In this document: piece by piece, positions 33,401 to 44,410 of the stretch
How the letters are laid out: each line of letters starts with the position of its first letter
Position numbering within the stretch: the first letter of the stretch is position 1
Assembly: GCF_003991135.1 (NCBI RefSeq)
Contig: NZ_CP016379.1
Location: 558,001-622,000 of the forward strand
DNA from: Anoxybacter fermentans
GTDB lineage: Bacteria; Bacillota; Halanaerobiia; DY22613
DNA length: 64,000 nt
Direction: 5' to 3'
Notes under the pieces: model-generated
Told to the model about the DNA's origin: nothing
Database searches by the model: none
What the model saw: the letters and a program-made list of their open reading frames with translations, nothing else
Made by a program: the position numbers and the translations under genes

Positions 33401-34838
33401 AGTACCTGATATAGACCTTAACTTCTCAGGAGAGTATCAGTCCGTTGTTCATAAGTACACCGAAGAACTCTTTGGACGGGATTATGTTTTCCGGGCCGGA
33501 ACCATTTCTACTGTGGCAGAACGGACAGCTTACGGTTTTGTTAAAAACTATCTGGAAGAAAAGGGAATAACAGCACGGAGTGCCGAAATTGAGCGTCTGG
33601 TTAAAGGGTGTGCTGGGGTTCGACGAACGACCGGACAGCATCCCGGAGGTCTTATGATTGTTCCCAATGATAAGGAAATATATGATTTTTGTCCAATTCA
33701 GCATCCTGCAAATGACGTAACATCTGATGTTATAACGACCCATTTTGATTATCATTCTATTCATGATAATCTGCTGAAGCTGGATATTCTGGGCCACGAT
33801 GATCCGACAACAATCAGGATGCTGCAGGATTTGACGGGAATTGATCCACGGAAGATTCCACTGGATGATTTGAAGACAATGAAAATCTTCTCATCAACTG
33901 AACCCCTTGGTCTTACTCCAGAACAGTTGGGAACAACGGTGGGAACTTTTGGTATTCCAGAGTTTGGTACTCAATTTGTCCGGGGAATGCTGGAGGAAAC
34001 AAGGCCGACAACCTTTGCCGAATTAGTACGGATTTCAGGTCTTTCTCACGGAACAGATGTCTGGTTAAATAATGCCCAGGATCTGGTGCGAAGCGGAACG
34101 GCTCAGTTGGCTGAAGTAATTTCTGTCCGGGATGATATAATGAATTATCTGATACTAAAAGGTGTGGATAATGATAAAGCTTTTAAAATTATGGAGAAAG
34201 TAAGAAAAGGAAAAGGATTAACTGAAGAGGAAGAAGCATTAATGCGAGAACATGATGTTCCTGAGTGGTATATCGAATCGTGTAAAAAGATTAAATACAT
34301 GTTCCCGAAAGCTCATGCTGCTGCTTATGTGATGATGGCTTTCAGGATTGCATATTTTAAAGTTCATTACCCTCTGGAATTTTATGCTACCTATTTTACC
34401 ATCAAAGCGGATGATTTTGATGCCCAGTTGGTTTCTAAGGGGCAGGACTATGTACGAAAAATGAAAGAAAAGCTTGAAGCAAAGGGTAGTGATGCTACAG
34501 CTAAAGAAAAAGGGATTCTTACTGTGTTAGAAATTGTCCTGGAAGCGATGCTTAGAGGGATTGAGTTTGATAAGGTAGATCTTTATCGCTCTCATCCAAC
34601 TAAATTTTTAATCGATCCTGAGACGAAGAAGCTGATTCCGCCATTTGTCAGTTTACAGGGATTGGGCGAGAGTGCAGCTAGAAGTATTGCTGCCAGTCGT
34701 GAAGAAGGAGAGTTTAAATCTATAGAGGATTTAGCAACCCGGGCCAGGCTGTCTAAAACTGTAATTGAGGTATTGAAGGAACATGGAACATTGGATGGCT
34801 TGCCTGAGAAAAATCAATTGTCCCTCTTTGGTTTTTGA
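30480..34838 (+). CDS. polC: DNA polymerase III alpha subunit PolC (Gram-positive type)
   Basis: A 1452-residue replicative polymerase with built-in proofreading. In order: an N-terminal domain (about 1-190), a proline-rich linker, an OB fold (VVEGKVFKVEERELKSGRKIISFNITDYT), and a PHP domain (VELHAHTKMSAMDSVADVSDLV). The DEDD exonuclease is inserted there (WVVFDVETTGFNPTEEEIIEIGAV through HHRACDDAEATGEIFLKLL). The polymerase core has the zinc-binding ICEKCKYSEFI...CPNCGQKL and PDIDLNFSGEYQ. The C-terminus ends in QLSLFGF, a likely beta-clamp binding peptide. AAGGGG precedes the ATG. Confidence 0.98.
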   Translation: MAKVVISPDKKNIFLDEFIERLAENLPTDKISNSNILNKFSIHSINIYIREKRMEIFVECPEGFEIEQVQNCFIQLLHEFIPQLECIDCKWKEKRRVESLKEGFKEAWPDLLHKLQEYLPTSNGWLERAKWKVQGQTLEILIESTFGLNQLKNKRCDEYIRSYVRDELGFDVEVKLGVYEVELAPPPPPKFIPPSEVPPPSFLSDFGNGEIKNNNGGSKSRRHQSKPEEGALLGKKISDNEKVTPLKEITDEERSIVVEGKVFKVEERELKSGRKIISFNITDYTDSITGKIFVDADNELGSQIKKGVWLRCRGKVQIDKFSQELTLWPDDMMEIDRKDGRQDDAPKKRVELHAHTKMSAMDSVADVSDLVNTAISWGHKAIAITDHGVVQAFPEAFNAAKGKIKIIYGVEAYFMNDGEAIVLNATDKPLDQIEWVVFDVETTGFNPTEEEIIEIGAVKIKDGKIIDRFSTFVNPGRSIPARITELTGIDDNMVAGAPTIAEIMPDFIEFFKDSVLVAHNAMFDYRFLTAALEKTGYSKLISNITILDTLNLSRALLPDLKKHRLNSLAEYFEVNLENHHRACDDAEATGEIFLKLLEMLNKDITTLNEVNNLSKEIDWKRLKTYHLCILVKNSTGLKNLYKLISKSHLDYFYRHPRIPRSLLQKYRDGLLIGSACEAGYLYRRALQGASDEELKEIIRFYDYIELQPLGNNSFLVDQGQVGSLEELKELNKRIYQLAKEEGRPVIAAGDVHFIEPRDAIFREILMTAQGFEDAENQAPLYLRTTEEMLEEFSYFGENIAREIVIENTNLIADMIEDIRPVPEGVYPPKIPGADKEIREMTYKRAREIYGEELPEIIEKRLEKELKAIIDNGYAVNYLIAHKLVKKSLDDGYLVGSRGSVGSSLVATMCGITEVNPMPPHYICEKCKYSEFITDGSVGSGPDLPDKDCPNCGQKLIKEGHDIPFEVFMGFKGDKVPDIDLNFSGEYQSVVHKYTEELFGRDYVFRAGTISTVAERTAYGFVKNYLEEKGITARSAEIERLVKGCAGVRRTTGQHPGGLMIVPNDKEIYDFCPIQHPANDVTSDVITTHFDYHSIHDNLLKLDILGHDDPTTIRMLQDLTGIDPRKIPLDDLKTMKIFSSTEPLGLTPEQLGTTVGTFGIPEFGTQFVRGMLEETRPTTFAELVRISGLSHGTDVWLNNAQDLVRSGTAQLAEVISVRDDIMNYLILKGVDNDKAFKIMEKVRKGKGLTEEEEALMREHDVPEWYIESCKKIKYMFPKAHAAAYVMMAFRIAYFKVHYPLEFYATYFTIKADDFDAQLVSKGQDYVRKMKEKLEAKGSDATAKEKGILTVLEIVLEAMLRGIEFDKVDLYRSHPTKFLIDPETKKLIPPFVSLQGLGESAARSIAASREEGEFKSIEDLATRARLSKTVIEVLKEHGTLDGLPEKNQLSLFGF

Positions 34839-34886: not shown

Positions 34887-35108
34887 GGTTAAACTGCAAA
34901 AAGCTAATTTTTCAATCCATGAGAAATTTTTCGAACCATCTAAAGCTCGATTTCCGCCGAATAAGGCTTCCTAATCAAAGGGCCCTCCTGGCCCTTGATT
35001 AGCTCATCACCTCCTGTGATGAGGCCTTATTTCGTCGGAAATTTCGCTAAGATGGTTTAGTGAAAAATTTCTCAAGAAGCGAAAAATTAGCTTTTTGCAG
35101 TATAATCA
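34887..35108 (+). repeat. Dispersed inverted-repeat element, copy 3 (long form, best preserved)
   Basis: A 222-bp palindrome after polC. The ends are aactgcaaaaagctaatttt and its complement. The outer arms contain gaaatttttcgaaccatctaaagctcgatttccg and, on the other side, the complement of gaaatttttcactaaaccatcttagcgaaattt. The central module has two hairpins in a row: GGGCC-ctcct-GGCCC extended by aatcaa/ttgatt, then CATCAC-ctcct-GTGATG, all inside aataagg/ccttatt. It directly abuts the decayed IS1380-type element. Confidence 0.9.
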
Positions 35109-35113
35109 TATTA

Positions 35114-36678
35114 CCTGAATCCGTGATGCTTTTTTAAACTATGTGTTCTCTGAACATTTTTTTAGACATCTATGAGACAAAACACAGCAATAAAGTAATT
35201 TGTTATATTACTATTTCATTAGTCTCAAAAAAAAGGAAATAAATACATTTCTTTCTAGAATAATCGAAAGATTCAAAAAAAGTTAATTTCTAACTTTATC
35301 TACTTGTTATATATCGACAATAAGATATATTCACATGATTTTATTACAAAAAGATAATTTTTCTCAATTTAATCGTGCGTAAGATATCTTTTGATAAATC
35401 TCCTTAAAAACTAAAAACCATGGACTATGACGCCCAAATGAAAGTTTATATTGTCGAGCATGGTAAACCAAACGACATGCTAAATAAATCAAATTATGAA
35501 TGACTGTTCTAATAGGTCTGCGTTGGGCTTTTTTACGTAAAGGAGTTTTCGTAAAACCAACCATCATTTGCCCTATTATACGCAATATATTATAAGCCAG
35601 TACATCAAGATGTAAAATCAAATTGTTGGTAGCAAATTTGCCACTCGGCAGTCTTTCCAGATCTAAATCTGTTTTTATCTCACTATGAAATTGCTCACTG
35701 GTACCATGTTTTTCATAAGGTTCGATAATAACTTCTGGCTCATCGGGTAGACTCGTCCAGTATGTATCTACTTTGATTTTGGGCATTAGTAAAGTTTGTC
35801 CGTCTGGTAGTATGGTTTCCTCTGTAACTTTATAAATAAGTCGAATTTGATGATTGGTTTCACCATTTTCTGTCTTTTCTTTAAACTCAATTTTCTGAGA
35901 ACCTAAATAAACTATTTTGCCTTCACGCTCTTTTATCATAGTTCCATTTTGTTTAGCAATGGCATACCATGTTTCAGGTTTTTCTCTACGCATGTTGCGT
36001 TTTATGATAAAGTCAGCTTTAGTTTCAGGGTTTAAACAAATCTTTCTATTTTCAATGCTGTCATAGCCCGAATCCATGCGGATCAGCAGAGGTAGTGAAG
36101 TAATTTTTTTAGCATAGCGAATAGCATTAGCCAGGAATTCAGCAATACCATTTTGAGAGTGATCCTTAAGATATAGGAGTAATTGGCGCTTTAACCTTTT
36201 TTATCAAATGGACTGCCTCTTCTAAAATAATTTTATTCCATTGTGGATGGCGTCCAACCGTATCAAGACGTTGACGTAATGTAGGACTGGAAGGTACTTG
36301 TTTTAAACCCAATAATATTGCAAAAAAATCATCTTCACGAAACTGTTCAATACAATCAAAATCATTTTTTCCCTGACACAAAAGTCCGATATGAGCTGCT
36401 ACAACATCACCGTTAGAAATTGAGGGTGTGGAAACCCCTTTTAGCCTTGTTAAATTGAGACGTTTTTTTAAGGGTACGAGATTCAGCAGTTCTCCAACTA
36501 ATGCTAAACCTGAATGACTGGAAATAAGTTCGTTGGATTGTTCAAGAATGAATTTCATTGACTTATTTGCACTTTCCGGGTGAAAATTAATAATCCGAAA
36601 TAAATGTATTTTCCTCTATAATACTTCTATTTTTACCTAGTTTCTTCCTTTTCTAATTTTAAAAATCACGGATTCAGG
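35114..36678 (-). mobile_element. Decayed IS1380-type insertion sequence
   Basis: CCTGAATCCGTGAT (35114-35127) is matched exactly by its complement at 36665-36678, framing 1565 bp. The transposase within is broken. About 235 bp of AT-rich DNA lies between the left end and the transposase stop, and about 105 bp between its start and the right end. The left terminus begins six bases after repeat copy 3. No clear target duplication was found. Confidence 0.8.
35364..36558 (-). pseudogene. IS1380-family transposase, internal deletion and frameshift
   Basis: The N-terminal part (36558-36166) reads through DFDCIEQFREDDFFAILLGLKQVPSSPTLRQRLDTVG and stops after KVKAPITPIS. A different frame continues at once with YLKDHSQNGIAEFLANAIRYAKKITSLPLLIRMDSGYDSIENR and runs to the normal end at 35364. 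IS1380 transposases usually have about 40-50 residues between these parts, including a catalytic aspartate region. So a deletion that also changed frame is the simplest reading. The gene cannot give an active transposase. Confidence 0.85.
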
Positions 36679-36977
36679 TCAATTAAAAAATTATCTTTTA
36701 TAACAAAAATTATTTAACAATAAAATAATTTTAAAAAACGAGAATGATAATCAGCCCTACATGTCGAAATAAAAATAAGAAAATTAAAACATAATTCAAT
36801 ATAGATAGGAGTTATCGATAATATTTAGAAAAAAATTATGAATATCTAAAGGGTCAATTATTAAATCATTATAAATCCTATGAATTCTAGACTAGCCATA
36901 ATGGAGTTAGGTTGTTGTTCATCGGGTTAAGCTTGGTAATTTTGATAAATATAAAATAGGGGAAGGAGGTGACAAGC
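36679..36977. other. AT-rich gap upstream of the precursor-like gene
   Basis: About 300 bp with no coding frame. It must hold the promoter for the small gene at 36978, but I could not find a -35/-10 pair good enough to report. The sequence gagaatgataatca near 36740 resembles one half of a Fur site and is not strong evidence. Confidence 0.5.
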
Positions 36978-37085
36978 ATGAAGGTATTGGTTCCAGCTAA
37001 TAAGACAGAAAGTGGTATTATAGCAGTTCATGCACTCTGTGGACCTTGTTCGCATCTTGGTGGATGTAGAACAATTGCAGGATAA
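36978..37085 (+). CDS. Candidate RiPP precursor peptide with C-x2-C-x5-C core
   Basis: This 35-codon gene has a perfect GAAGGAGGTGA ribosome site ending six bases before the ATG, stronger than almost any other in the window. The product has a short, moderately polar N-terminus (about 20 residues) and a core ending ALCGPCSHLGGCRTIAG, with cysteines at 21, 24 and 30. Subtilosin A, a sactipeptide, has the same C-x2-C-x5-C spacing, also with S after the second cysteine. A radical SAM/SPASM maturase and two ABC half-transporters lie downstream on the same strand. Only five residues follow the last cysteine, so the thioether acceptors would differ from those of subtilosin. That it is a precursor is inference; that it is a well-translated small gene is well supported. 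Confidence 0.72.
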   Translation: MKVLVPANKTESGIIAVHALCGPCSHLGGCRTIAG

Positions 37086-37102: not shown

Positions 37103-37144
37103 GGAGAAAAGTAAGTGGTGCTTTATAACCACTTACTTTTCTCC
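37103..37144 (+). terminator. Perfect 17-bp hairpin after the precursor-like gene
   Basis: GGAGAAAAGTAAGTGGT pairs without mismatch with ACCACTTACTTTTCTCC around an 8-base loop, starting 18 bases after the stop codon. No T-run follows, so it may act as an RNA-stabilising or partial-termination element rather than a classic terminator. The stem itself contains AAGTAAGTGG-type sequence but no gene. Confidence 0.7.
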
Positions 37145-37549
37145 TCGCAATTATAGAAACTTTCAAAATAGAGAATATAGGAAAATATTGTATTCAAGCG
37201 ATGAAAGGCGAATAATTAGATTCTCTGGTTTTGAAAAGCTTTATTATGATGAGAAATTAATTAGTAGCATCAAATAAAATATGAAGTTTCTTAGAAAATG
37301 GAAGTTGGTAATAGTTTAAAACCATTCTATCAGTTAGAGTACAAAATATTGTATTTCGAGTCAAGTAATAATTCACCATTTAATAAAAATATGGAAATTA
37401 AAGTTTATAATAAGTTTTGTTATTAATTATACTTTTTTAAAACCAACCAGGGTTAAAGAGTTTTGTTGTGCTACTCTGATTTTTTGCATTTATCTGTAAT
37501 GCTTATTGAATCTTGGATCTTGTTCAATAGTCCATCTAGTAACTTATGC
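37145..37549. other. AT-rich stretch with no supported gene
   Basis: About 400 bp between the hairpin and the second decayed IS. A 60-codon frame (37095-37277) crosses the hairpin and has no ribosome site or recognisable relatives, so it is not called. The left end of the IS should lie here, but no terminal repeat could be matched. Confidence 0.5.
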
Positions 37550-38879
37550 TCAGTTTTCAATTATTCGACCAGTGGAGTCTGTAATCTGCAAAGGTGGTTT
37601 ACCGCCAAATGAATCATGGGGTTTTAAGTAGTTGAAATACAACTGATACAGTATTGCATGAGAGATAGCACCTTCGAAAGAACTGAAGCTTTTATGTCGT
37701 TTGTAATATGATTTATAAGTTCCAAAGAAGCGTTCTACTATGTTTTTGTAAGGCCGATAAACTTCATTGCTGTAATCGACTATTCCATAGGGAAAAAGCC
37801 CTTTAATCTGGTGGTGATCGATATTTGCATTTAGAAATACTTTAGCAGCATGTACAGCAACTTCATAGATTAGAGCTTTATAGGTCACTAGAGTGAATTT
37901 TTTACCATCGTATTGTTCGATGACCCTTTGTAGAATTGTAAGGGCAGCTTTAGCATCACGATGTTTAGAAAGATGCTGAATGATGACAAAACCATGTTTA
38001 CCATCGATGGCTGTAAATAAGCAGTGCCATTTGCCTTTAATTTTGACATAGATTTCATCGATAGCGACAATATCAGATAAAGGTAAAGGTAGTTTTGGAA
38101 TCAAGGGTGCCAATTTAGCAGCTAATGAAACTGTCCATTTTTGAATGATCTCTTTTGATAGAGAAACTTGCCAGGTTAGTTTGATAGCCTGTACAGTTTG
38201 TTGTAAAGAGAGACCTAATCCGATGTAGAAATCAATAGCTTTAGAGATTAAAAAGTTCCGTAATGGCTGTTAGCCAGGTTAACTGGTGTTTTTTGTGGAG
38301 ATGAGATTTCTAACTCATTTGGATCAAAATCAAAAGCACGATAACGATATCTTTTACGTTGATTAACCCATTTAGGGCAGTTATCGTTTTTACATTTGTA
38401 TTTGGTGTAATGTTTTCTATGTTTTTCTTTAGAGAGGGCATAACCACAAAATAGGCAATAGTATGTAGGATGTGTTTTAGGTTGATGAGGCTTTTTTGGA
38501 GCCCATTGATATTTACAGACTTTACACTGAAGTTTTTGATATCCATCCCGATCACGTCCAAAGAGTCTGAGATAGTCTTCAGAGGGGCTCCACAGTGTGG
38601 GCATTCATCGACATCAATATTTAAAGATTTAATTCTGCGTACAGGTTTGATTGGTTGTCCATTTTTTTCAGCTTCAGCGAGTAATGTTTGATAATCTTTG
38701 TAAACAGGTTTTACAAGAGGTAAAGGATTATCTAGGCTGTTTAATTTAGAGTAGTTATCATCAATCTGTTTAGATGGTGTAAAATCAATACGGAAATATT
38801 GTGAGAGAACTAAAAAGAGATGAAGAAGAAAATTTAATAAAGAATTTAAGAGGATATTGAGTAGTGGTTGACGAATCAT
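37550..38879 (-). pseudogene. DDE transposase with zinc-ribbon N-terminus, broken by frameshifts
   Basis: Three minus-strand frames make up one transposase. The first (from 38879) ends its sensible part at DVDECPHCGAP. The second picks up with SEDYLRLFGRDRDGYQKLQCKVCKYQW and further zinc knuckles, and stops at SHYGTF near 38248. The third starts with LISKAIDFYIGLGLSLQQTV and runs through DIVAIDEIYVKIKGKWHCLFTAIDGKHG to VERFFGTYKSYYKRHKSF. Where the second catalytic aspartate is expected the frame reads LVTYKALIYEV, so it seems lost as well. At least two one-base shifts are needed. The IS family was not identified with certainty. Confidence 0.82.
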
Positions 38880-38886
38880 AACTTAC

Positions 38887-38959
38887 GAATCCCTCCATTC
38901 TGGGTGTAGTGAGTTTTGGTTTGGTCAACTACTACCTACTACTCCAGGGGGAGGGATTC
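38887..38959. repeat. Inverted repeat at the right end of the second decayed IS
   Basis: GAATCCCTCC (38887-38896) pairs perfectly with GGAGGGATTC (38950-38959), with further partial pairing inside. It probably marks the terminus or a subterminal structure of the element. Confidence 0.55.
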
Positions 38960-39066
38960 CTTCTTTTTTAGGAAAATCCCGACTCTACAAGGAAAAATCA
39001 AGCTTTTGCCCCTTGAAAAAGGGAGAAAATTTGACGGAACAGATTAATTTAGTGGAAGGAAAATAT

Positions 39067-40435
39067 ATGAAATGGACAAATTATTATACATTCTTTGATT
39101 TGAAAAATCATTATTATTTGCTTAATACTTTAAATTCTGCATTAATTGAAATAGATGAGGAGTATCTATCAAAGATTAAGCATGTAATTTCGGACTGTAA
39201 TTATGATGTTCTTAGTAAGGATGAGATTAAAATTCTTACAGAAAATAGGTTTCTTATTAATGATTCTTACGATGAACTTTTAGCTGTTCGTAATAAATAT
39301 CTTTTGTCAAAATATCGATTAGGGAACAAAATAAAAATAGATATTGCCGTTACTAATCAATGTAATTTTAGATGTCCATACTGTTTTGAAAGATTCTCTA
39401 ATAATACAATGCATACAAGTATTGCAGATGAAATAAGAGGTAATTTTGTAAAAAAATTTAAAATTTTATATAACATATATGTCAAGCAATTATAAAATAA
39501 GAGAATTGCAGATAGTTTGGTATGGTGGTGAACCATTGCTTGAGTGGCCTTTCATACATTTTATAAACGATGAATTAATTAGTTTATCTGAACGATTTGG
39601 CATGAAATATAATAACATAATAGTAACAAATGGTTATTTACTCGATGAATCAATTGCGAGGGCATTAGGAAAGCAAAATATAGAGTATGTTCAAATTACT
39701 CTTGATGGCACTGAGCACATTCATAATTTAAGAAGAAGAATTGCTAACGGTGGAGGCTCATATTCAACGATTTTACAAGGGATTTCTTATTTATTAAATA
39801 ATAATATAAATACTGTTATTCGTATTAATGTTGATAAAGAAAGTATTAATTCAATTAGCTCGCTTATTGATGAGTTATATAGGAAATATAAAAAATATGT
39901 AAAAACTAAACTACTTTCTTTAGATATAGCACGAGTGTATGGATATAGAAAATCTTTTTCATTGTCTGATTTTTATTACATGTGTAGGAATATTTGGTTA
40001 AAGACAGTACATTATGGTTTTATTACTCCATCATTACAAGTTGCAGGTATAGGAACTTTTTGCGGAGCTGAGAGAGATTCTCTTACTGATATAGTTGTAG
40101 ATATTTTTGGGAATCTTTATAAATGTTGGAATTATGTATTTGTAAAAGGAGCAAATTATTCAACATTAGAAGAGTTAGCAGAACACAATTATGAAATAAT
40201 CCCTCAAAACAGAAATAGGCTGAGGTATGTTGAAAAAGCTTCCCTTCTAAGCATCAATAATGGTAAATGTTTAAGCTGTAACTATTTTCCCTATTGTCAA
40301 GGACTTTGTCCAGATCTTAGACTTAGAATAATGAAGAGTTTGGAAGAAAATATATATAATAGGGATAAGTGCAAATCGATAGTTAAGGATTATCTAGAAA
40401 CCCAAATAGAGGCATTGTTATCTTCTAAGGAGTGA
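39067..40435 (+). pseudogene. Radical SAM/SPASM peptide maturase, split by a one-base frameshift
   Basis: The first part (39067-39495) has an N-terminal winged-helix-like region of about 85 residues, as in peptide-modifying radical SAM enzymes, then the cluster-binding C99-x3-C103-x2-C106 (VTNQCNFRCPYCFE). The second part (to 40435) in the +1 frame has WYGGEPLLEW, NGYLLDES and VQITLDGTEHIHNLRR. Its C-terminus is a SPASM domain for two more iron-sulfur clusters: C-x15-G-x4-C, C-x2-C-x5-C-x3-C and a last C. The parts join in frame if one A is removed from the A7 tract at 39450-39456, giving about 455 residues, a normal length. It may be a true mutation, a slippage site or a sequence error. The ATG at 39067 has GGAAGGA six bases upstream. 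Substrate: probably the peptide at 36978. Confidence 0.85.
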
Positions 40436-40440
40436 TAGTA

Positions 40441-42054
40441 ATGATGAATGTCATCTTCAGGCAGTTTAAGTTCTTATGGCAGCAAATGCCAAAAGGATAT
40501 AAGCAATATTATACAATTTATATGCTTATTTCTGTTGTTCATGTTTTCATTTTTCTGCTTCTTCCACTTATATACAGAGATATAATAGACGCTCTTACAA
40601 AAGAGCATTATTCTCCAGAGAAAATTTTTCTTTATATCATTCTCACTTTGGCAGGCTATGCTTCAATAAGGATATGGAGTCTTATAAATATCTATTTCAA
40701 AGAAAAAATGAAAAAAATTATTATGGATAAACTTTTTCATTCTGTACTGGAGATGGATTCAGCTCATTTTAAATCAAGAGAGCCAGGTTATTGGGCAAGT
40801 ATTTTTTCAAAGGACATAGATATGACATCAAATATGTATCTGGATTTTGTTTATACTCTTCCTGCTGAAGGTATTGCCCTTGTTGCGATACTTGTCATTA
40901 TTGCTATTAACTGTATGCCTATTACTTTTGTTATTCTTTCAGGATTAGCTATTGCAGGTTTCATAAATTATTGGAGAGATAAATATGTGGTGCCTTACTA
41001 TGATAAAGCACAGGAGGATTTCAGGAATACAATTGATATAGTTAATGCTTACCTCAAAGGGGTAGGAGATTTATTGCACAATCAGGCAGAGAATGTTTTT
41101 ATTCAAAAATTAAAAGAGAGATTTGTCATTTACAGTAATCATCTTGAAAAATATTTTAAAAAGGATTCCATAAGCGAATATTTCATTTCAGTTACAAATG
41201 AAGTTACAAAAATGGCAAGTGTTGGGCTTTCTTTATTTTTCTTTATAAAGGGAAATTTTACTTTTGGTACAGCAATACTTCTTATTATGTTTTCTTCCAC
41301 TGCCTGTGAAAAGGCAAAATATTTAGTGGAGAATTTCAAATGGCTTATGAATTTTCCTCCTCACATTAAAAAGGTGCAAATGGCTATTGAATCTCCACAA
41401 TTAATAAAGAGCAAGCAAAATATATCTAGTGATTTTATTGCTTTAAATTTAAACAATATTGGTGTTAAATACAATGATAAATGGGTAATAAGACATTTTT
41501 CTATGGAAATAAAAAAAGGTGAGAAGGTTGCATTATTGGGGAAAAGCGGTATAGGTAAATCAACAATTTTAAAAGTAATTTCAGGGAGTATCAGGCCCTG
41601 TGAAGGTAAAGTAGAGTTTATTTATTGTTGCCCGAAGATAGGACTTCTCTCTCAGAGATGTTATCTGTTTAATAGAACCATAAGGGAAAATATGTTAAGT
41701 GTAAAGCCTGATGCTAAAGATGAAGAAATTATTGAAGTATTAAAGAATGTTGGATTGTTTGACTGGTTTCGAAGATTGCCTTTGGGGTTAAATACGCAAA
41801 TTGGCCAATTGGGCAAATTGGTTTCTGGCGGAGAAAAAGCGCGATTATCATTAGCCCAACTCATTCTTTTAAATCCTGATTTAGTGCTTATTGATGAACC
41901 GTTTGTAGGTGTGGATAAGGAGCGTAAAGACGAAATTATGCAATATATGAAAAAGTTTTTACAGGATAAAACCTGTATAATTGTAACCCATGATGATGAC
42001 ATAGTTAAAACCCTTGCCTTGCGGTGTGTTTATGTGAGAGGTGATAGCTTATGA
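40441..42054 (+). CDS. ABC transporter, fused membrane and ATP-binding domains (exporter half 1)
   Basis: A 537-residue half-transporter with about six membrane segments in the first 310 residues. The ATPase domain has Walker A GKSGIGKST, signature VSGGEKARLSLAQL, Walker B LVLIDEP and switch histidine in IIVTHDDD. There is no C39 peptidase domain, so it does not cut leader peptides itself. The ATG at 40441 follows TAAGGAG that overlaps the end of the maturase. It ends four bases into the start of the second half, so the two halves are almost certainly made together as a heterodimer. Confidence 0.92.
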   Translation: MMNVIFRQFKFLWQQMPKGYKQYYTIYMLISVVHVFIFLLLPLIYRDIIDALTKEHYSPEKIFLYIILTLAGYASIRIWSLINIYFKEKMKKIIMDKLFHSVLEMDSAHFKSREPGYWASIFSKDIDMTSNMYLDFVYTLPAEGIALVAILVIIAINCMPITFVILSGLAIAGFINYWRDKYVVPYYDKAQEDFRNTIDIVNAYLKGVGDLLHNQAENVFIQKLKERFVIYSNHLEKYFKKDSISEYFISVTNEVTKMASVGLSLFFFIKGNFTFGTAILLIMFSSTACEKAKYLVENFKWLMNFPPHIKKVQMAIESPQLIKSKQNISSDFIALNLNNIGVKYNDKWVIRHFSMEIKKGEKVALLGKSGIGKSTILKVISGSIRPCEGKVEFIYCCPKIGLLSQRCYLFNRTIRENMLSVKPDAKDEEIIEVLKNVGLFDWFRRLPLGLNTQIGQLGKLVSGGEKARLSLAQLILLNPDLVLIDEPFVGVDKERKDEIMQYMKKFLQDKTCIIVTHDDDIVKTLALRCVYVRGDSL

Positions 42055-43658
42055 AGCGAATAAAATGGCTTTTTCATATATTGCCCAAAACCATAATAAT
42101 AGATTTTATTATTACATTTTTCTTTTTCTTTGCATCAGACATTGGCATATTATTAATGCCATTGTTCTATGCAAAAATTCTCGACAAGGTTCAAAAATTA
42201 CATAACTTTCCTTTTGTGTATTATTTAACATGGGGAGGACTTATTTTAGTTTTGGTAACAGTACGCACATACATGACATATAGAAATAGTAAACAAAAAG
42301 TTAAGATACATAAAATACTTGCTGTAACAACAGGCAAATTGATTTTTAATGTTCCCTTGCAAGAAGTTGTAGCAAAAGGTTCGCAGTATTACACAGATGC
42401 AATTTTAAATAGAACTGGAGAGGTATCATCATTATTTGATATACAAAACATGACAGGTATTATAAATCTCGCAAGACTTATTGTTTTAACAATACTCATT
42501 ACATATATTGATAAAATATCAGGTGTGTCTTCCTTTATTGTAGTAATTGTATCTATCCTTATATATAAATATGGAAATAATTATTATCTGAAAAATAATG
42601 CAAAGTTCATAGAAAAAAAGAGGCAATACTTAAGTGATGTGGAAGATACGATTTTTGGAAAGGAAGAGATAGAAAATTTTGGGACTTTTGATTATGAAGA
42701 GAAACGCCACAATGCTTTAACAGAAGAATTAAGGAAAATGCACACCAAAATTTTAGCCAGAGATTTTATACATTTTTTTATAGAACTGGATGCTGTAAGG
42801 ATTGCTTATGAACTTTTCATATTTGTCTGGGTATTGAATAGAGTTTATACTGGATTATATTCCTTAGGGATTGGCATAGTCTTGATTTCTTACAGTAGGA
42901 TGCTTACAACCCCTATTGTATATCTTAATTCTATCCTGACGAATTTCAGAAATAATTTAACTGCTCTTGATATTGTACATAACCTGGATAAAAATAAAAC
43001 ATTGCCCAATTCAACACCAATTCCTGTATTGGGCAAGAAGATTGAAAAGATTTGTTTTCGGAATGTAAGTTATAGAGTTAATGAAAAAGTAATACTTAGT
43101 AATTTATCATTTGAATTGAGGAAAGGAGAGAAACTTGCTATTGTTGGCCCTTCAGGCAAAGGGAAAAGTACAATTATTTCTTTGCTTTTGAAAGATTGTG
43201 TGCCTACATCAGGAAAGATACTTGTAAATGATGTAGATATTAAATATATAGATAAGGATTGGCTATATACTCACATTGGTCTACTTTCTCAAAATGGATA
43301 TTTATTTCCAACTACAGTGGAAGAAAATATACGGATGGGTAATACATCTGTTACAACTGCGGAAGAAAATGAAATTTTAAAAGAGGTAGAATTATCGTCA
43401 ATAGAACTTAATTACAAAGTCCGTGAAGGTGGACAAAACCTATCTGGTGGTGAAAAATCCCGGTTGCTTTTGGCCAGGCTTATTGCTCAAAATAAAGATT
43501 TTGTCATATTAGATGAGCCTTTGGAGGGAGTGGATGTTAAAACGAGAAGTAAAATTATAGAGAATTTAAAAACATATTTAGCTTCAAGAACTGCTATCAT
43601 TATTACACATCACACTGAAATAGCCAATGCCCTTGCCACACGGAAAATATTAATCTAA
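42051..43658 (+). CDS. ABC transporter, fused membrane and ATP-binding domains (exporter half 2)
   Basis: A 535-residue half-transporter of the same build: six membrane segments, then Walker A GPSGKGKST, signature LSGGEKSRLLLARL, Walker B FVILDEP and switch histidine in IIITHHTE. Like half 1 it carries GEK rather than GQ in the signature. Overlap of four bases with half 1 shows translational coupling. The likely role is export of, or immunity to, the modified peptide; this is inferred from context. It ends the island; nothing recognisable follows until the rimP leader. Confidence 0.92.
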   Translation: MKRIKWLFHILPKTIIIDFIITFFFFFASDIGILLMPLFYAKILDKVQKLHNFPFVYYLTWGGLILVLVTVRTYMTYRNSKQKVKIHKILAVTTGKLIFNVPLQEVVAKGSQYYTDAILNRTGEVSSLFDIQNMTGIINLARLIVLTILITYIDKISGVSSFIVVIVSILIYKYGNNYYLKNNAKFIEKKRQYLSDVEDTIFGKEEIENFGTFDYEEKRHNALTEELRKMHTKILARDFIHFFIELDAVRIAYELFIFVWVLNRVYTGLYSLGIGIVLISYSRMLTTPIVYLNSILTNFRNNLTALDIVHNLDKNKTLPNSTPIPVLGKKIEKICFRNVSYRVNEKVILSNLSFELRKGEKLAIVGPSGKGKSTIISLLLKDCVPTSGKILVNDVDIKYIDKDWLYTHIGLLSQNGYLFPTTVEENIRMGNTSVTTAEENEILKEVELSSIELNYKVREGGQNLSGGEKSRLLLARLIAQNKDFVILDEPLEGVDVKTRSKIIENLKTYLASRTAIIITHHTEIANALATRKILI

Positions 43659-43948: not shown

Positions 43949-44410
43949 ATGAGTAAAATTGCTGAAATTGTCTATAAAATGGCAGAACCCATCGTTGATG
44001 AAGCAGGGCTTGAATTGGTAGATGTGGAATACATAAAAGAAGGCAAGCAATTTACACTGCGTGTTTTCATTGACCGCCCTGAAGGCGGGGTTACATTGGA
44101 TGATTGTCAAAATGTAAGTTCTAAGTTGAGTGAACTTTTAGATGAAAAGGATCCAATTCCCAATTCTTATACATTGGAAGTTTCTTCCCCCGGCATTGAT
44201 CGGCCTTTAAAAAAAGATGCAGATTTCGTAAGATTTGCTGGGCGGAAAGTAGATGTTTCTACATACAAACCTGTTTATGGCAGGAAGAAAAAATTTAGTG
44301 GAGAATTGGTTGGACTTGTAGATGGAAAAGTGGTAGTTCGGGTTGATGATGAACAACTAGAGATTCCCCGTGACCAGATTTCCAGGATCAGATTAGCAGT
44401 TGAGTTTTAA
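43949..44410 (+). CDS. rimP: Ribosome maturation factor RimP
   Basis: A 153-residue protein needed for 30S subunit assembly. The family line AEPIVDEAGLELVDVEYIKEGKQFTLRVFIDRPEGGVTLDDCQNVSSKLSELLDEKDPI...YTLEVSSPGIDRPLKK covers the N-terminal domain, and a C-terminal SH3-like domain follows. GGAGGG lies upstream. First gene of the nusA operon, as in Bacillus (ylxS). Confidence 0.97.
   Translation: MSKIAEIVYKMAEPIVDEAGLELVDVEYIKEGKQFTLRVFIDRPEGGVTLDDCQNVSSKLSELLDEKDPIPNSYTLEVSSPGIDRPLKKDADFVRFAGRKVDVSTYKPVYGRKKKFSGELVGLVDGKVVVRVDDEQLEIPRDQISRIRLAVEF

Follow-up and report, generated by a model that had tools for sequence, protein, structure and literature searches.

The stretch of DNA analysed here (the window) comprises 64,000 nucleotides of the Anoxybacter fermentans genome (NZ_CP016379.1, positions 558,001 to 622,000). 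It contains an island of about 9 kb between polC (ending at 34838) and rimP (starting at 43949), gene names given from a look at the sequence, and in this island a short peptide ORF precedes a radical SAM/SPASM maturase and two ABC half-transporters (Table 1), an arrangement consistent with a locus of the modified-peptide (RiPP) type. An insertion sequence (IS) with an imperfect terminal inverted repeat (37254-37275 / 39029-39050) and split transposase ORFs (37550-38113, 38248-38604, 38310-38879) lies between peptide and maturase. Through this insertion the maturase start lies some 2 kb away from the precursor, and the gap between the end of the IS and the maturase is about 25 bp. Concerning the mobile elements around the island, a 235-aa transposase fragment very similar to the second, upstream IS is found at L104:1724-2431. 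Just after polC, a long imperfect inverted repeat (34889-35105; 44-nt arms, 89% complementary, 129 nt between them) holds GGGCCCTCCTGGCCCTT in its middle and is possibly a MITE-like element.

Table 1. Features of the island in A. fermentans. L027, Thermoanaerobacter sp. A7A; L053, the complete genome G449; P0001, the intact maturase of L027.
Feature	Position	Strand	Remarks
Second IS, upstream of the precursor	35113..36679	-	Perfect 15-bp terminal inverted repeats ACCTGAATCCGTGAT; split/broken transposase; context, outside the system
Shine-Dalgarno region of the precursor gene, ggaaggaggt	36961..36970	+	Sequence
Precursor peptide gene, 35 aa	36978..37085	+	Leader-like part MKVLVPANKTESGIIAVHA, core LCGPCSHLGGCRTIAG; ORF reading; orthologue in L027 and L053
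Stem-loop directly downstream of the precursor	37103..37144	+	Perfect 17-bp; fold z = -7.8
IS between precursor and maturase, ~1.78 kb	37264..39041	-	Numerous copies in this genome, complete or partial, with common ends at ~37264 and ~39041
Maturase, N-terminal part	39067..39495	+	Radical SAM motif CxxxCxxC and RRE-like N-terminus; alignment to P0001 begins at residue 1 of the latter
Maturase, C-terminal part, other frame	39455..40435 (ORF starts 39479)	+	GGEP, SPASM cysteines; 55% identity over 324 aa; SPASM TIGR04085 above cut-off
ABC half-transporter 1	40432..42054	+	Membrane and ATPase domain, no peptidase domain; 50% identical to L027:7971-9578
ABC half-transporter 2	42051..43658	+	52% identical to L027:9575-11173

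The initial annotation had described an ORF with the cysteine spacing C-x2-C-x5-C, a serine after the second cysteine and a tail of five residues, and exactly this is encoded at 36978-37085. The ORF starts with an ATG at 36978 and translates to MKVLVPANKTESGIIAVHALCGPCSHLGGCRTIAG, with Cys21, Cys24 and Cys30, Ser25 and five residues following Cys30. The AAGGAGG ends 8 nt upstream of the ATG. The window contains a single ORF of 25-70 aa that combines a strong Shine-Dalgarno sequence with C-x2-C-x5-C, and 60 random first-order sequences of the window's nearest-neighbour composition contain none.

When about 85,000 species genomes were scanned, one relative of the maturase came up, with 55% identity, in the heat-loving Thermoanaerobacter sp. 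A7A (NZ_AVAF01000129.1). There, an orthologous precursor (MKVLSPAKLEQNGLKVIPPLCGPCSHLGGCRSIEIY, L027:6218-6328), with aaggaggtg at a similar distance from its start, is followed by a hairpin, a 454-aa maturase in a single frame (P0001) and two ABC half-transporters. The complete genome G449 (2,362,816 bases), from the same taxonomic order, shows the same gene order, and its maturase and precursor are identical to the L027 copies. The A. fermentans locus resembles the Thermoanaerobacter locus in gene order and core but differs in its broken maturase and in the IS, no IS being present between precursor and maturase in Thermoanaerobacter. The maturase identity applies to the C-terminal two thirds. 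Precursor and orthologue share 61% identity over 33 aligned residues (E 7e-11, search against the window). Within the core LCGPCSHLGGCR all 12 residues agree and three codons differ silently, whereas outside the core 14 of the 23 aligned residues, in leader and tail, differ. The 12-residue core is thus under purifying selection at the protein level, and since the orthologue carries an invariant core with silent codon changes only, 36978-37085 is a genuine peptide gene. Because the orthologue too lies before a maturase and an ABC pair, and the core is invariant while leader and tail have diverged, the peptide is almost certainly a RiPP precursor. The earlier proposal of a genuine precursor has thereby gained a homologue with conserved cysteines. 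In each of the two lineages a strong hairpin lies at the same place behind the precursor, and the two hairpin sequences are unrelated. The one in A. fermentans, after which no T-run is present on the + strand, probably marks the RNA 3' end or serves in processing or attenuation. A promoter scan gave sites no more frequent than in shuffles.

Outside these two lineages the family is scarce. No further maturase orthologues were found in the window's class (59 genomes), in the order and class of Thermoanaerobacter, in two further small classes or in two phylum-level samples, each of about 400 genomes; as these samples were drawn from larger groups, they do not prove absence elsewhere. Peptide searches gave only chance matches in 151 related genomes (E >= 0.04) and no match in the plasmid collection. 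A DNA pattern of the CGPC[S]xxGGC type matched 15 times in viral contigs, and from their frames all these matches were judged to be chance. Directly upstream of the locus in Thermoanaerobacter lies a second RiPP-like locus (L027:223-3541, also L053:1836-5154). It encodes a 29-aa peptide (MSMVRKINFDPIVNPAFCGLAKICGVEIK), ABC transporters, one of them truncated, and a radical SAM/SPASM protein whose nearest models, PapB/nif11, are matched below cut-off.

The intact maturase P0001 contains the motifs CxxxCxxC and GGEP and a seven-cysteine SPASM pattern (C332-x15-G348-x4-C353 ... C401-x2-C404-x5-C410-x3-C414 ... C435). A putative RRE is suggested by homology of the N-terminal part rather than by an RRE model. 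The best curated models are Clo7bot TIGR04334 (172 bits, cut-off 600), TIGR04463 (163, cut-off 525) and CefB (157, cut-off 600), all missed by a wide distance; a true Clo7bot maturase scores 732 bits on TIGR04334. In a tree with 18 other sequences, which like the model comparison did not include AlbA, the window and Thermoanaerobacter enzymes pair with 100/100 support, and their common stem measures about 2.1 changes per site; they make up a separate clade within a wider Clo7bot/CefB/TIGR04463-like group that includes the true Clo7bot maturase. The Clo7bot system shares with ours a short hydrophobic leader beginning with MK, a Cys-rich core and ABC transporters nearby, but it has seven or more long Cys-rich precursors at the locus inspected, compared with one precursor of 35-36 aa and three cysteines here. 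By sequence and by predicted fold, the latter from a structural model of middling confidence (pLDDT 68), the nearest solved structures are those of the thioether-forming CteB (5WGG/5WHY). On the SCIFF maturase model, however, P0001 reaches only 55.7 bits (cut-off 425), and SCIFF precursors contain six cysteines. The PapB model is likewise missed (107 bits, cut-off 340), and the two orthologues lack a conserved Asp/Glu at Cys+4, the C-x3-D/E acceptor motif of the ranthipeptide precursor PapA. The streptosactin maturase model GggB is not among the best 25 matches of P0001, i.e. below 52 bits (cut-off 650), and the second ABC protein scores 100 bits on the GggC model, far below the cut-off of 750.

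Related maturases adjoin short Cys-rich peptides with similar hydrophobic leaders (MKFIKKP, MKFIVKP, MTYLIEG, MQMLIEG), and such a shared leader strand would fit recognition by the RRE-like N-terminus. Three related maturases lie close together with very short Cys peptides, e.g. MKFIVKPKPVNKDYEPWCPTFCPCRWPNRMV, in L089 (G359), all below the curated cut-offs. A relative of the window's family encodes a pair of similar 30-aa peptides with the ending YCCPV (MLDQLWNLEEYSYDRISIDNPPIKAYCCPV; L092:2536-2902), and a radical SAM gene lies about 2 kb away. Another possible RiPP locus is present in the A. fermentans genome itself (L102, 1777000-1796000), where a 37-aa peptide containing CC (MKNMISLNKGWKMEKNLRAACCIKPVITIAMNNDEEE) is clustered with additional radical SAM maturase-like genes and an MFS exporter-like gene.

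Both loci show what is expected of RiPP systems, a short precursor beside a radical SAM/SPASM protein and a transporter, and a precursor conserved together with its maturase in another lineage. We propose that the maturase binds the short leader (MKVL-x-PA-) through its RRE-like region and links the three cysteines, or some of them, to carbon atoms of CGPCSHLGGCR[S/T]I, so that small thioether rings arise. A thioether from the cysteine sulfur to an alpha carbon would make the product a sactipeptide, one to a different carbon a ranthipeptide. The ABC pair would export the product, which would act most likely as a bacteriocin or a signal. Neither a leader peptidase nor a processing protease gene is present in the locus, which counts somewhat against this scheme; the leader would have to be removed by a protease encoded elsewhere. 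As a whole, a RiPP locus with thioether rings made from an RRE-bound leader, ABC export, and silence or decay in A. fermentans is to us the probable explanation, even though the structural model is of middling confidence and RiPP maturases of the radical SAM type are also responsible for C-C links, epimers and other modifications.

Concerning the rings, the tail after the last cysteine is only 5-6 residues long in both orthologues and conserved only in R-[S/T]-I, so that nearly all acceptors should lie within CGPCSHLGGCR[S/T]I. According to the available part of PMC8172795, the known sactipeptides, streptosactin excepted, are nested hairpins whose acceptors lie well beyond the cysteines, acceptors before the cysteines are without precedent among the sactipeptides described there, and streptosactin carries two unnested rings (C-x2-S and C-x2-G) in a short core. 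The positions three residues after Cys24 and Cys30, Leu27 and Ile33, are invariant, so that short rings like those of streptosactin are a reasonable starting assumption, and by this analogy short thioether rings are the most likely outcome. Given the streptosactin precedent in that same source, short rings would not alone be new. That two or three tiny overlapping or unnested thioether rings of an unseen topology, made by a maturase lineage apart from the curated ones, constitute a new RiPP class is possible, though on balance we doubt it.

The cysteines may also serve otherwise, in a CGPC disulfide or in metal binding by C-x2-C-x-H-x3-C, or the maturase may epimerise or form C-C bonds on other residues. 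CGPC is the redox motif of thioredoxin, His26 is invariant, and TigE, another radical SAM enzyme, is among the structural neighbours. CteB nevertheless ranks first among these neighbours, and where a radical SAM/SPASM locus has three invariant cysteines, these usually act as donors in thioethers. We therefore consider such alternative chemistry unlikely and retain thioether formation as the preferred reading.

As already noted in the initial annotation, the adjoining maturase is broken: aligned to P0001, it changes frame between ~39450 and ~39490, in an A-rich run. The maturase is probably not functional in this genome, and this break together with the IS between precursor and maturase suggests that the locus is silent or decaying. 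Both neighbouring ISs are broken as well. As the window's long housekeeping genes are intact, decay is more likely than poor sequence, although a sequencing error is possible given the A-rich run. It could be argued that the system works here after all, through ribosomal frameshifting or because the break is such an error, the peptide and both ABC ORFs being still open. The required shift, however, is +1 and not the commoner -1 (a programmed -1 frameshift was rejected on this ground), and the intervening IS carries its transposase on the opposite strand. Together with the contrast between broken ISs and intact housekeeping genes, this leaves a working system in A. fermentans improbable. Radical SAM genes found elsewhere in the genome fall on other branches and do not look like substitute maturases.

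The spacing of the cysteines and the serine after the second one had been likened to subtilosin A (sboA/albA). This kinship is not supported: the window peptide matches no family in Pfam or NCBIfam at E <= 1 and the orthologue none in NCBIfam at E <= 0.01, processing proteases are missing from the locus, and the maturase is nearest to the Clo7bot, TIGR04463 and CefB models, AlbA itself standing outside this comparison. The misfit of the acceptor layout, pointed out at the same time, is strengthened by the orthologue. Neither peptide has the subtilosin layout with Phe22, Thr28 and Phe31 as acceptors well after the last cysteine, and with tails of this length conserved only in R-[S/T]-I, three nested S-to-alpha-carbon bridges are very unlikely; a true relative of subtilosin A is highly improbable. 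Cysteine spacing alone is evidently a poor guide to such kinship. A chance ORF beside unrelated genes, conceivable for a short peptide outside all family models, is refuted by the orthologue in the same position with its invariant core and silent changes.

Neither the core string nor terms for this system were found in the literature searched, and the Thermoanaerobacter locus given by genome-mining papers is a different one (T. mathranii Tmath_1971/1976; PMC4289311, PMC3132745). We conclude that precursor and maturase belong to a new and small RiPP family with a patchy distribution. The family is of a known kind, distinct from subtilosin, and appears to be undescribed; an intact version of it exists in Thermoanaerobacter. 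This intact copy is the better experimental subject. Since the short invariant core confines the acceptors to about 13 residues, the ring pattern of this branch of maturases should be readily solvable.
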